Below, piece by piece: positions 48,596 to 53,078 of a stretch of 64,000 nt of DNA. Under the pieces are notes generated by a model. That model had not been told where the DNA came from. It did not search any database and worked only from the letters and a program-made list of their open reading frames with translations. The DNA is from Natrialba hulunbeirensis JCM 10989 (GTDB taxonomy: Archaea > Halobacteriota > Halobacteria > Halobacteriales > Natrialbaceae). The position numbers and the translations under genes are program-made. Every line of letters begins with the position of its first letter. Position 1 is the first letter of the stretch. The DNA is taken from contig NZ_AOIM01000035.1 in assembly GCF_000337575.1 (NCBI RefSeq), forward strand, positions 235,498 through 299,497, read 5' to 3'.

Positions 48596-49432
48596 TCAGT
48601 TGGAAGGTGCGTCGTCACCGGGGTCCGTATCGGTGGTGGTGGAATCGAGATCGGTACCAGGTCCGACATCGCTCGTCCCATCGCCACCCTCACCACTTGC
48701 ATCCACGTTGGTCGCAGCCGGCAGATTCGGATCCCGGAACGGATTCCGGCCGTACGCCGGCAACTCGTCGTCGAGCTGGGACTTCAGCACCCGTCGAAGG
48801 CGGTTGAGACTCGTCGTATCGAGGCCGTGATCCGCTGCGAGGCGTTTGAACGTCGGCTCGTCGGTGATGTCGTGCGCGCGGTACTGGCCGAACAGTTCGT
48901 CCATTCGATCGGCCGACAGCGTCTGGGCGTCGATATCGTCGAGCCCAAAGTAGGCCCGGCGGTCGAGATCGACGACGTGGCGAATCACCACCAGCGCGAC
49001 CTTGGGGATCGCCCGCTGGCTGCCGAACTCCGTCAGGTCGATCTCGTCCATGACGCCGAGTGCGAGGTCGCGCTGCCAGGGGGTGAGCTCGAGTGCGTTG
49101 CACAGCGCCTGCGTCGTCCGCAGTCGGTCGAGGTGGTGGGCACGCTCGCTGTAGCCCGGCGTGGCGGCGTGTTGTTCGTCGTGGAGGCGGCGAACGCTCT
49201 CCGAGAGGTCCGAATCGGGTGATTCCGCGCGCCCGATGACGGTCGCACTCGGCGTCACGATACCCCATTGGCGGACCGTCGTATCTCGCTTCGCGGCCGC
49301 TCGCGAGAGCGTCCCCGCACCGGGACGGGTCTCCAGCGGACGCTCGGGGCGCTCTCGAGGGCGATCAGGGCGGGCAGTGACGGCTCCCGCCCGCTCGGGA
49401 ACTGGACCGCGGTCGGCACCGTCGTCGTACAT
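48596..49432 (-). CDS. DNA-directed RNA polymerase subunit epsilon (haloarchaeal)
   Basis: This is a 278-residue protein whose core reads KRDTTVRQWGIVTPSATVIGRAESPDSDLSESVRRLHDEQH and LDRLRTTQALCNALELTPWQRDLALGVMDEIDLTEFGSQRAIPKVALVVIRHVVD. This is the halophile-specific protein named RNA polymerase epsilon, which co-purifies with the enzyme; its exact role is unknown. The helical PKVALVVI region resembles a cyclin-like fold. The N- and C-terminal ends are Pro/Arg- and Asp/Thr-rich. ATG 49432 was used; the longer frame upstream is Arg/Ser-rich. Confidence 0.88.
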   Translation of the reverse strand: MYDDGADRGPVPERAGAVTARPDRPRERPERPLETRPGAGTLSRAAAKRDTTVRQWGIVTPSATVIGRAESPDSDLSESVRRLHDEQHAATPGYSERAHHLDRLRTTQALCNALELTPWQRDLALGVMDEIDLTEFGSQRAIPKVALVVIRHVVDLDRRAYFGLDDIDAQTLSADRMDELFGQYRAHDITDEPTFKRLAADHGLDTTSLNRLRRVLKSQLDDELPAYGRNPFRDPNLPAATNVDASGEGGDGTSDVGPGTDLDSTTTDTDPGDDAPSN

Positions 49433-49610
49433 TGTCTGTCGCTCAGACAGGGAGACAGAAAAAGGCTCGCTCGTTTTGCGCCGCGTTTCAAGACGACTGA
49501 CAGTCGATCCGACAGCTCTCCGGGAACTGGTAACTGATTCCACCTTACTCGAGTTGAACGGAAGCCAGCGCAGTCGCTCTCCGAGCGTAGTTGTCCCGCG
49601 AAAAGCCCTT

Positions 49611-49643
49611 CGTAGCTACACCTTGTGACCAGAGGCACTTAAA
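49611..49643. repeat. 33-base dispersed repeat, copy A
   Basis: This is the first of four near-identical copies with core CTACACCTTGTGACCAG, followed by AGGCACTTAAA here. It differs from the others at one position after CCAGA. It lies between rpoEps and the nucleotidyltransferase gene. On the minus strand the end reads TTTAAGTGC, a possible promoter box. Confidence 0.9.
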
Positions 49644-49747
49644 GAATCCTTGCCGGTGCGAGACGAACGGCGATAGATAGCCAATGGACAGTCGAACGAC
49701 TACTCGATTCGAACGAACCGACGCAAAACAGCGCGTCGGTGACCCGT

Positions 49748-49780
49748 CGTATCTACACCTTGTGACCAGAAGCACTTAAA
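49748..49780. repeat. 33-base dispersed repeat, copy B
   Basis: This copy, starting CGTATCTACACC, overlaps the last codons of the nucleotidyltransferase gene, whose TAA stop is supplied by the repeat's TTA (49776-49778). It is on the same strand and orientation as copies A, C and D. Confidence 0.9.
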
Positions 49781-50819
49781 GAACTGCTGCGAGCAACGCG
49801 TCGGTAAACTCGTCCAGCCGCGCCGGCTCCGGGCCCGAACGCGCGTGAATCGCCGGCTCGATCTCGACTGACGGGTGGGCGAACTCGCGACCGACGACGT
49901 CGCCGACCATTGCCTCGCCCTCGCCACGGCGCTTTCGCTCGAGCAGGTCCCACGCGCGCTCGATTCGTTCAGTGTCGAAGACCGCTGGTGCCTGCTCGGT
50001 GAGAAACTGATCGAACTCGAGTGCTGGCAGGTCGTGGCTGGTTGAGCTGGTTGGGCTGGTGGGGTTGCTGGGGGTGTCGCCAGCCGCTCCACACTCACCA
50101 GTCGCCTGCAGATAACGTGCGGCCATCGCCGCGCGATAGATTGTGAGATTGCGCTTGACGGTGGGCTTCGTCTGCGTTTCGGTGAATCGGTCGTCGTCCG
50201 CAGCGATGGTCATGGTGGTCGTGTCGTCGCTCGCCGTGCCGTCGCTTGGCTCGTCAGTCGCTCGTTCGACGACGTAGCCATCCGCACTCCGCTCCACGAT
50301 AGGAAACAGCTCGTCGTCTGTACGCACGAGATGGTGTGAAATGTACTTACGGTAGTTACTCGCCGCGATCCCGCGGTAGGCGTGATAGAGGTCCATCGGG
50401 TTGTACGTGTGTTCGACGTAAGTCCGGAGTTCGTCGAGGACAGACGGCTCACACGCGACTCGGTACCGGATCGGGCTCCGAACGAGGTCGAGGGCACCGT
50501 CGTTCGACCCCGCGAGCAGGCTCGCGAATTTCCGGACGTTCCAGCCCTGGTAGTCGACGTCGTCTTCGCCACTGAACTGTGTGACGAGGGTGTCGTCGGG
50601 GCGCTCGAGATGTGCGTACTGCCGGAGATCGGTCGGCGCAAAGACGAATCCAACGTCGTAGTCGCTCGCCGGACTCGCCCCACCCCAGGCGTGGCTTCCG
50701 CGAGCGACGGCCAGCACGACTTTGACGTCGTGGGCGCGCTCGATACGCTCAAGCTGACACTCGACGGTGGCTCGAACACGCGCTGGTACTCGTGCGGAAG
50801 CTGCTGGCGCTGTTGGCAT
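49776..50819 (-). CDS. Nucleotidyltransferase (DNA polymerase beta-like, YcgL/RlaP family)
   Basis: This 347-residue protein has the nucleotidyltransferase signature VLAVARGSHAWGGASPASDYDVGFVF (Gly-Ser, then Asp-x-Asp) near residues 30-55. Family-typical segments YQGWNVRKFASLLAGSNDGALDLVRSP and YRGIAASNYRKYISH follow. Such proteins of the PF10127 type are linked to RNA repair or nucleotide addition, and the target is unknown. An insert of Thr/Asp/Ser (DEPSDGTASDDTTT) and a variable tail distinguish it. ATG 50819 starts MPTAPAASARV. Its 3' end runs into repeat copy B. Confidence 0.85.
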   Translation of the reverse strand: MPTAPAASARVPARVRATVECQLERIERAHDVKVVLAVARGSHAWGGASPASDYDVGFVFAPTDLRQYAHLERPDDTLVTQFSGEDDVDYQGWNVRKFASLLAGSNDGALDLVRSPIRYRVACEPSVLDELRTYVEHTYNPMDLYHAYRGIAASNYRKYISHHLVRTDDELFPIVERSADGYVVERATDEPSDGTASDDTTTMTIAADDDRFTETQTKPTVKRNLTIYRAAMAARYLQATGECGAAGDTPSNPTSPTSSTSHDLPALEFDQFLTEQAPAVFDTERIERAWDLLERKRRGEGEAMVGDVVGREFAHPSVEIEPAIHARSGPEPARLDEFTDALLAAVL

Positions 50820-50882
50820 AATTCGTTTACCGTAACTGAAACCGCCAGTCGACAAGAAGCCGTATGGCCGCGCAGTGCCGTT

Positions 50883-50915
50883 CGTAGCTACACCTTGTGA
50901 CCAGAAGCACTTAAA
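50883..50915. repeat. 33-base dispersed repeat, copy C
   Basis: This copy, starting CGTAGCTACACC, lies between the divergent starts of the nucleotidyltransferase gene and the SDR gene. Orientation is the same as copies A, B and D. The sequence after TTAAA differs from that of the other three. Confidence 0.9.
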
Positions 50916-51066
50916 CGGCGATGGGGGAACGGCTGTGACCGACGACCTGTCCTCCCTTCCTGAAGGAATTTCGTCCGGTACTCGAGTAGCCGCCTGCAAT
51001 TGGGGACGTCTCGCTTCGCTTTCCGGCTTCTCGAGGCTTTTTGGTGGTTCCCGACGGGACAGTAGT

Positions 51067-51828
51067 ATGGGTACTGAGGACACACTACATGGAAAGGCGG
51101 CGCTGGTCACTGGAGCGAGCGCGGGAATCGGACGGGAAACTGTTCGAGCACTCGCAGACGAAGGAATGAACGTCGCACTTGCGGCACGGCGTGCCGACGA
51201 GTTAGATGCGCTGGCGGCGGATGTCGAAGCGGAGTACGGTGTCGACACGCTCGTCGTTCCAACCGATGTGACGGACGAGGAGGCGGTCGAACAGCTGGTG
51301 GCCGAGACGGTCGACACCTTCGGCGGACTCGACGTAGTGGTCGCCAACGCGGGAACGGGAACCGAACGCGGCGTCGGAATCGACGAACTGGACACGGAAC
51401 AGTACCGGACCGTGATGGAGGTCAACACCGACGGCATGTTCTTTACGACGCGAGCGGCCGTTCCGCATCTCGAGGAATCGGCTGGGACGATTGTATTCGT
51501 CGGCAGTTTCGCGGGGAAGTTTCCGCGGTCGGGAAGCCCGGTCTACGCGGGAACGAAGTGGTGGACTCGCGGGTTCGCGCTGAGTCTGGCGGCACAGGTC
51601 GGCCCAGATGAGATCGGTGTCACGGTCATCAATCCGTCCGAGGTCAGAACTGAGTTCGGCAAGGAGTACCGCGACGAGGCGGAGTTATCGAAACAGCGGT
51701 ACGATCCGGGAGAGATTACCGAACCTGCGGACATCGCGGCGGCGGTCGTCTTCGCCGCACAACAGGAACCGCCAAACGCCGTGACTGAGATCGACCTCTA
51801 CCGGCGAGATAAGTTCGAGATGTTGTAG
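51067..51828 (+). CDS. Short-chain dehydrogenase/reductase
   Basis: This 253-residue classical SDR has the coenzyme motif TGASAGIG, DVVVANAGTG, and the catalytic Ser (VGSFAGKF) plus Tyr-x-x-x-Lys (YAGTKWW). The arginine after beta-2 (LAARRADEL) favours NADP(H). ATG 51067 gives MGTEDTLHGKAALVTGAS; the longer upstream frame includes repeat copy C and is rejected. The alcohol or ketone substrate is unknown. Confidence 0.92.
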   Translation: MGTEDTLHGKAALVTGASAGIGRETVRALADEGMNVALAARRADELDALAADVEAEYGVDTLVVPTDVTDEEAVEQLVAETVDTFGGLDVVVANAGTGTERGVGIDELDTEQYRTVMEVNTDGMFFTTRAAVPHLEESAGTIVFVGSFAGKFPRSGSPVYAGTKWWTRGFALSLAAQVGPDEIGVTVINPSEVRTEFGKEYRDEAELSKQRYDPGEITEPADIAAAVVFAAQQEPPNAVTEIDLYRRDKFEML

Positions 51829-51991
51829 CGAACTGATTGAGCGCCAAACTGACGGGATACTGAACTGCTGGATACCGAACCGACCAGATTCCGGATTGAG
51901 TGGATATCGAACCAACTGGTATCCGATAGAGCCCCAGTCTTCCCAGTCTGAACAAGGGAGAGAGTGACTCCGCAGAACGACGCTCCTCCGT

Positions 51992-52024
51992 CGTATCTAC
52001 ACCTTGTGACCAGAAGCACTTAAA
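51992..52024. repeat. 33-base dispersed repeat, copy D
   Basis: This copy, starting CGTATCTACACC, lies between the SDR gene and mptA, about 120 bases before the mptA start. It is identical to copy B over the core. Confidence 0.9.
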
Positions 52025-52145
52025 GAGCCGTCGCGCTGGAGTGGGTCCACTGTGGCCCACAGCGCAACCGGTGCCGTCTGCCGGTATTCGGCAGTGAACT
52101 GTCCGTTCCGAAAGGCATAATCGCGCGCTCCCCTGAATGCGGGCA

Positions 52146-53078
52146 ATGAGTCACCAGTTGCCGGACGTGCAGGCGTCCTCGCCGGACGTCACCGTCGGCC
52201 TGAGCCAGGTCGGCGTCACCGGTGTCGAAAAGCTCGTCAAGCTCGCCCGGGAGGACAAGCGCCCGATCGTCCTCACCGCCGAGTTCGAGGTCTTCGTCGA
52301 CCTCCCCGCCTGGCGCAAGGGCGCGGACATGAGCCGCAACATGGAGGTTATCGACGAGATTCTGGAAGACGCCACGCGCGAGGAAGCCTACCGCGTCGAG
52401 GATGTCTGTGGCGACGCTGCAGAGCGCCTCCTCGAGAAGCACGACTACACGTCGAAGGCACAGGTCTCGATGGAAGCCGAATTCATGCGCCGCGAGCAGA
52501 CACCGGCGAGCGACCGCGAGACCCAGCACACCGTCGATATCATCGCCTCAGCGACGGCGACGGAGGACGGCACGCGCGAAGAGATTGGTGCGGAAGTGAC
52601 CGGCATGACCGTCTGTCCGTGCTCGCAGGGGATGTCGGCCGCGCGCGCAAAGCAGACACTCGAGAACCTCGGCGTCGAGGACGAGACGATCACGCAGTTC
52701 CTGGAGGAAGTGCCACAGCCGGGCCACTCCCAGCGCGGGCACGCGACGCTCACCGTCGAGGCGGGCGGCGACCCCGACGTGGATCTGAACGACATTATCG
52801 ACATCGCGCGCGATTCGATGAGCGCGCGGATCTACAACCTGGCCAAGCGCCCCGATGAGGACCACATGACCTACGAGGCACACGCGGACGCGAAGTTCGT
52901 CGAGGACTGTGTGCGCTCGCTTGCGGAGGGCGTCGTCGACGAGTTCGACCAGTTGCCGGACGATGCAGTCGTGACGATGAAGCAGTCGAACGACGAGTCG
53001 ATCCACCAGCACAACGCCCATGCCGAGCGTATCGTCGAGATGGAGACGCTGCGCGAGGAAATCGCGGCCGACGAGTAA
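52146..53078 (+). CDS. mptA: GTP cyclohydrolase MptA (type IB)
   Basis: This 310-residue T-fold enzyme of the FolE2/MptA group has [26 protein letters not shown], the Cys-containing [27 protein letters not shown] and [15 protein letters not shown]. In archaea it converts GTP to 7,8-dihydroneopterin 2',3'-cyclic phosphate with Fe(II). In haloarchaea it supports folate and, through the pterin pathway, archaeosine synthesis. ATG 52146 gives MSHQLPDVQ. It converges on the TrmB gene, with 11 bases between stops. Confidence 0.95.

Follow-up and report, generated by a model that had tools for sequence, protein, structure and literature searches.

A gap-free, TATA-containing DNA element of about 62 bp co-occurs almost perfectly with the gene for RNA polymerase subunit epsilon (rpoeps) across the sampled haloarchaeal genomes, and is probably a DNA target of epsilon. 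We found it as four copies in a 64-kb stretch of a Natrialba genome (the window, meaning the whole stretch analysed). Epsilon is an extra subunit of the haloarchaeal polymerase that has been known for decades and whose role is still called enigmatic; it is found in some haloarchaea, Hbt. salinarum among them, it is reported to associate physically with RNA polymerase in Hbt. salinarum and others, and polymerase with epsilon transcribes native templates efficiently, whereas polymerase without it does not (PMC8305020). An element that appears and disappears with epsilon over about 400 genomes, and accompanies even its remote plasmid paralogues, is a concrete substrate for testing the role of this subunit. 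If epsilon does read the element, haloarchaea own a polymerase subunit that confers promoter specificity.

The repeat at the Natrialba locus and its limits

The sequence CTACACCTTGTGACCAG occurred exactly four times in the window, always on the plus strand, at 49616, 49753, 50888 and 51997, and no further site was found there even with three mismatches tolerated. The chance expectation from the shuffled window was 0.06, and four copies were reached in none of 100 shuffles. A 63-nt repeat family was also recovered independently in the window (Table 1). A sequence-only reading had described these copies as four 33-base repeats in one orientation with a shared TTAAA end. Exact matches located all four at its coordinates, and the common orientation and the TTAAA end are correct, as is the minus-strand sequence TTTAAGTGC, whose resemblance to a TATA box looks meaningful. 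Copy 2 indeed gives the nucleotidyltransferase (RlaP-like) gene its stop codon (TAA, minus strand, 49776-49778, inside TTAAA), and the stop codon of this gene lies inside the element in part of Natrialba. The repeat is real but extends past the 33 bases. The genome-wide count proposed in the same reading gave five copies in the Natrialba genome (4.16 Mb, 48 contigs), the one outside the window being at C37:3037. This fifth copy sits between two convergent genes, one of which appears from its sequence to be geranylgeranyl-reductase-like. The window's assignment to Natrialba agrees with its named relatives, Natrialba asiatica, aegyptia, taiwanensis and chahannaoensis.

Table 1 Element copies and neighbouring genes in the window
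Feature	Position	Strand	Basis or remark
rpoeps, haloarchaeal DNA-directed RNA polymerase subunit epsilon	48596..49432	-	RefSeq plasmid orthologues, OE_1279R position, element co-occurrence
Element copy 1	49591..49653	+	core ACCTTGTGACCAGAGGCACTTAAAG at 49620-49644
Element copy 2	49728..49790	+	core at 49757-49781
RlaP-like nucleotidyltransferase gene	49776..50819	-	Pfam PF10127 RlaP, E 1.2e-31
Element copy 3	50863..50925	+	core at 50892-50916; between divergent RlaP-like gene and SDR gene
Short-chain dehydrogenase (SDR) gene	51067..51828	+	Pfam PF00106, E 9e-51
Element copy 4	51972..52034	+	core at 52001-52025; between SDR gene and mptA
mptA, GTP cyclohydrolase	52146..53078	+	TIGR00294, E 4e-125

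The limits of the element were taken from a gap-free alignment of 178 copies from 60 loci, with positions counted from the A of ACCTTG. Conservation runs from about -29 to +33 without length variation. The strong core of about 43 bp (-15 to +27) reads (CCCGTCGTATCT or CCCTTCGTAGCT)-NN-ACCTTGTGACCAGANNCACTTAAAGAA and is followed by a weaker GG at +32/+33, past which conservation ends. The skeleton CNTTGTNNCNAGANNNACTTAAA is kept in other families, with lineage-specific letters between. A weak dyad, GACG..CGTC around -15, matched in 404 of 712 pairs against 340 ± 9 in permuted ones, a comparison confounded by the lineage types.

The element was present in all seven Natrialba genomes, and a strict pattern found it in 103 of the 125 Natrialbaceae genomes, covering 24 of the family's 29 genera. 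Genomes carry about 1 to 13 copies. These are intergenic, only 28 of 431 lying inside called ORFs (ORFs cover 82% of the DNA), and they often form tandem arrays on the same strand, in which 183 of 184 close spacings were at least 100 bp and most were 105-150 bp. Gene calls at the fetched loci of relatives are computational. Copy 1, the nearest to rpoeps, has a "type 1" upstream half, GCGAAAAGCCCTTCGTAGCT. In the arrays at L095, L097, L103 and L116, the upstream half is GCGAAAAGCCCTTCG in the copy closest to the divergent gene (rpoeps or RlaP-like) and GACGNCTTCCCGTCG in later copies.

Co-occurrence of the element with the epsilon gene

The minus-strand gene next to copy 1 belongs to a gene cluster (c0) that adjoins the arrays in every family examined (60 loci). 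Four plasmid-borne orthologues with 57-62% identity are annotated in RefSeq as "DNA-directed RNA polymerase subunit epsilon". OE gene numbering, calibrated on rpl43e (OE_1373R) and aroB (OE_1475F), predicted OE_1279R (rpoeps) at about 472.5 kb of the contig on the plus strand, and the Hbt. salinarum orthologue was found at 472.9-473.6 kb on that strand. By this indirect match through gene numbering, the window gene is the predicted orthologue of rpoeps (OE_1279R) of Hbt. salinarum.

The position of the copies relative to genes had been called inconsistent in the sequence-only reading, a judgement that took the wrong genes as reference; with respect to rpoeps the orientation is near-constant. 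Among the named epsilon loci in GTDB, 74 of 80 had the element, in 72 cases upstream of the gene and on the opposite strand (divergent). Several families have an extra copy 3' of the epsilon gene, in either orientation. Hbt. salinarum has two copies, which border rpoeps and the dsbA-like gene.

We compared 392 Halobacteriales genomes, one per species, with epsilon identified by profile search and the element by a strict and a lineage-neutral pattern. Of the 180 genomes with a strong epsilon, 177 contained the lineage-neutral core, against 6 of the 212 others (2.8%); these are raw counts that ignore kinship. A reversed control pattern, taken as background, matched 9 of the 392. All 119 genomes positive for the strict pattern carried epsilon. 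Two of the three exceptions with epsilon (G203 and G246) have a variant element beside the gene at two mismatches. Of the six genomes that deviate in the reverse sense, G262 (87% complete) carries four perfect cores, and no epsilon was detected in it; in three others (G273, G342 and G401), about 140-150 bp separate the match from a remote homologue of epsilon. Some changes of presence are separate events. G323, with eight element copies, is the only genome with a strong epsilon in group f5 (probably Haloferax and Halorubrum), and in group g11 three genomes (G035, G037 and G039) lack both element and epsilon, which are both present in the congeners G036 and G038. These differences in presence are independent events and support the link between the element and epsilon.

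Diverged epsilon paralogues are also accompanied by the element. In Hbt. hubeiense, Natrinema thermotolerans and Halarchaeum, plasmid paralogues with 27-32% identity have a variant element upstream, no more than a few hundred bp away, against an expectation of 0.04 per locus. On plasmid pSTJ003 of Halobacterium hubeiense (L302), the variant element is about 200 bp upstream of the paralogue, which is close to a plasmid TATA-box-binding-protein gene. The remote homologues of G273, G342 and G401 (loci L294-L298; profile E about 1e-20) adjoin integrase-like, conserved hypothetical or repeated genes, and a variant element lies 3' of each homologue. In G401 the homologue is duplicated on a single contig. 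We read these loci as epsilon-carrying mobile elements.

Copies at unlinked sites resemble each other within genomes. Unlinked copies in one genome were 79% identical, compared with 72.5% for epsilon-adjacent copies between genera, in 15 of 15 genomes, and their flanks were at the random level (26% identity). Therefore, the copies evolve together, as the sites of one trans-acting factor would. We regard this as evidence for a putative shared trans-acting reader, to which within-genome amplification could contribute.

In Natrialbaceae, the element has a second regular neighbour, mptA. This gene was rejected as the real partner because outside Natrialbaceae the element adjoins epsilon without mptA at the fetched loci. 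Between epsilon and mptA, many genera of Natrialbaceae have the RlaP-like gene as an insert, always flanked by element copies; its product belongs to the RNA repair polymerase beta family of nucleotidyltransferases. The SDR gene is present at this place only in part of Natrialba.

Orientation and resemblance to promoters

Arrays near mptA have their plus direction toward mptA in 50 of 50 cases, and arrays near the RlaP-like gene have their minus direction in the sense of that gene in 41 of 41, a bias that follows from the common arrangement epsilon - arrays - mptA. Among 105 arrays away from epsilon, a gene in the sense direction was found only on the minus side in 25, only on the plus side in 18, on both sides in 52 and on neither in 10. 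The minus direction has no clear BRE, and the plus direction has AGAA beside the TATA-like box and no conserved start-site signal. Overall, neither direction of the element is clearly preferred (25 versus 18). Between the element and the ATG, each of rpoeps, mptA and the RlaP-like gene seems to retain a promoter-like sequence of its own, for example CCGAAAGGCATAATC just upstream of mptA. The element is therefore not simply the core promoter of its neighbours; for mptA and the RlaP-like gene that role was rejected, as other promoter-like sequences are closer to both starts.

One close likeness is to the class I intergenic repeats of halovirus HF2, which are 56-58 bp long and are promoters proven by reporter assay (PMC8707807). 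Both are intergenic repeated modules of about 60 bp that recur several times in a genome and keep their place and orientation. The HF2 TATA core, TCTTTAAGT, is identical to the minus strand of the element, and both have a conserved block with (T)AGA (AGAT in the element) about 27 nt from the TATA sequence, which is where HF2 transcription starts. However, HF2 repeats have an AAA-type BRE upstream of TATA, which the element lacks, and another sequence between TATA and the start. Of the HF2 gamma block CGTCTNNTAGAG, the element shares only the AGA/TAGA part, and the position weight matrix of the element found no match in HF2 (best score -10.8). In addition, HF2 promoters function in Hfx. volcanii without viral factors, whereas f5 genomes are mostly without a strong epsilon. 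As for spread by viruses, it was rejected: the 16 IMG/VR matches to the core were judged compatible with chance, and phage records contained no epsilon.

The element resembles archaeal BRE/TATA core promoters, which are bound by TBP and TFB, in its 8-bp TATA-like end and the AGAA adjoining it in the plus direction, but it fixes far more sequence (about 43 bp, gap-free) and has only about 1-13 copies per genome. At archaeal core promoters, transcription is expected to begin 22-27 nt from the TATA box. It also resembles the operator arrays of autoregulated factors, with tandem same-strand sites upstream of the presumed factor's gene and a few remote sites. Here, however, the presumed factor co-purifies with RNA polymerase, and the units are at least about 100 bp apart with a TATA-like box inside.

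A proposed role in epsilon-dependent transcription and its alternatives

We consider it probable that the element is a dedicated transcription-control element of epsilon, a TATA-containing promoter/operator module. That epsilon recognises it directly seems somewhat better than an even chance, and for promoter activity of the element rather than a pure operator function the balance is even. The unit would consist of double-stranded DNA, about 62 bp long, in which one end resembles a TATA box (ACTTAAAG / CTTTAAGT) and the specific half is long and free of gaps. Epsilon-carrying RNA polymerase together with TBP and TFB would assemble on it, and epsilon would recognise the specific half within the initiation complex. 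Through the tandem copies upstream of rpoeps, epsilon would control its own gene; feedback control is the simplest reading because the arrays sit on the gene of epsilon itself. Stray copies would place mptA, the RlaP-like gene, a DsbA-like gene (in Halobacterium) and a few further genes or non-coding transcripts under this control as well, so that rpoeps would be autoregulated together with a small regulon.

Searches with the epsilon sequence found no relative in the PDB and matched no Pfam or NCBIfam family. The structure model contains one confident helical domain (residues 94-225) behind an N-terminal 90 residues of low confidence. Structural matches to this domain include single cyclin repeats from TFIIB, Brf2 and archaeal TFB, and also cyclins; the values were Z 9.6 and rmsd 3.1 over 100 residues for 1d3u_B, and Z 10.9 and rmsd 2.6 over 96 residues for 5n9g_F. 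For helical models, a Z of about 10 falls short of the caution limit. Members of the TFIIB/TFB family have two cyclin repeats and an N-terminal zinc ribbon; the confident part of the epsilon model matches a single repeat. A TFB-like polymerase subunit and a TATA-containing element may form a coherent pair. Going further, it is conceivable, and we put it forward tentatively, that epsilon is a promoter-specificity factor made of a single TFB-like cyclin repeat and that the element is its dedicated promoter class. This would be a sigma-like, autoregulated alternative initiation system in archaea, in which mobile plasmid paralogues carry their own diverged, orthogonal promoters.

The element might instead be the operator of another conserved haloarchaeal transcription factor for which rpoeps is merely the most constant target. 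Operator arrays are common, the element precedes what look like the core promoters of neighbouring genes, and the co-occurrence could also result if epsilon were the target gene of another regulator. We consider this rather unlikely, as genomes lacking epsilon show the element only at the background rate, and each plasmid or mobile paralogue, at about 30% identity, comes with a variant element of its own. A host regulator would need to track epsilon through its losses and transfers.

Less likely still is a family of small-RNA genes, with the element as promoter of a short non-coding RNA and the 60-100 nt spacers that separate tandem copies as the RNAs. It would suit the TATA-like end, the tandem units of about 120-140 bp, and the copies between convergent genes (10 of the 105 arrays without an epsilon neighbour, and the fifth Natrialba copy). 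However, conservation stops at +33, Rfam gave no match, and the folding of candidate transcripts does not exceed that of shuffled sequences (mean z -0.28 and 0.01); alifold also gave no consensus RNA structure for the element on either strand. These results bear on the family of short RNA sites suggested in the sequence-only reading, of which the family of short sites stands and the RNA is unsupported. The other suggestion made there, a mobile short repeat, is not supported either. That the element is a spreading repeat or a recombination site, with the intervening genes as cassettes, is very unlikely, even though these genes vary (RlaP-like, SDR, ABC transporters) and the segment between inverted copies beside epsilon appears inverted in one locus of the Halorhabdus group (L135) relative to L138, L134 and L136. 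Copy number is low, sites are conserved across genera while the flanks of unlinked copies are unrelated, no recombinase is associated at chromosomal loci, and the element depends strictly on epsilon; the dispersed, variable positions and copy numbers of MITE or REP-like repeats were not seen. A recent functionless local duplication in the Natrialba strain, which that reading had named as an outcome that would count against it and which four copies in 2.4 kb might suggest, is excluded for practical purposes by the conservation of the element in relatives (all seven Natrialba genomes, 24 of 29 family genera).

Two further features of the arrays were observed. In several genera (L114, L117, L118 and L121), a second array locus precedes an acetyltransferase-like gene, after which come thiE/thiM-like genes. 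In Natrialba, an inverted repeat, CCGACGC-N(6-8)-GCGTCGG, precedes the second-copy type (window 49664-49756). Its version in G006, CTGACGC..GCGTCAG, is a compensatory change, and on the minus strand a T-rich sequence follows in some species. This inverted repeat may be a terminator.
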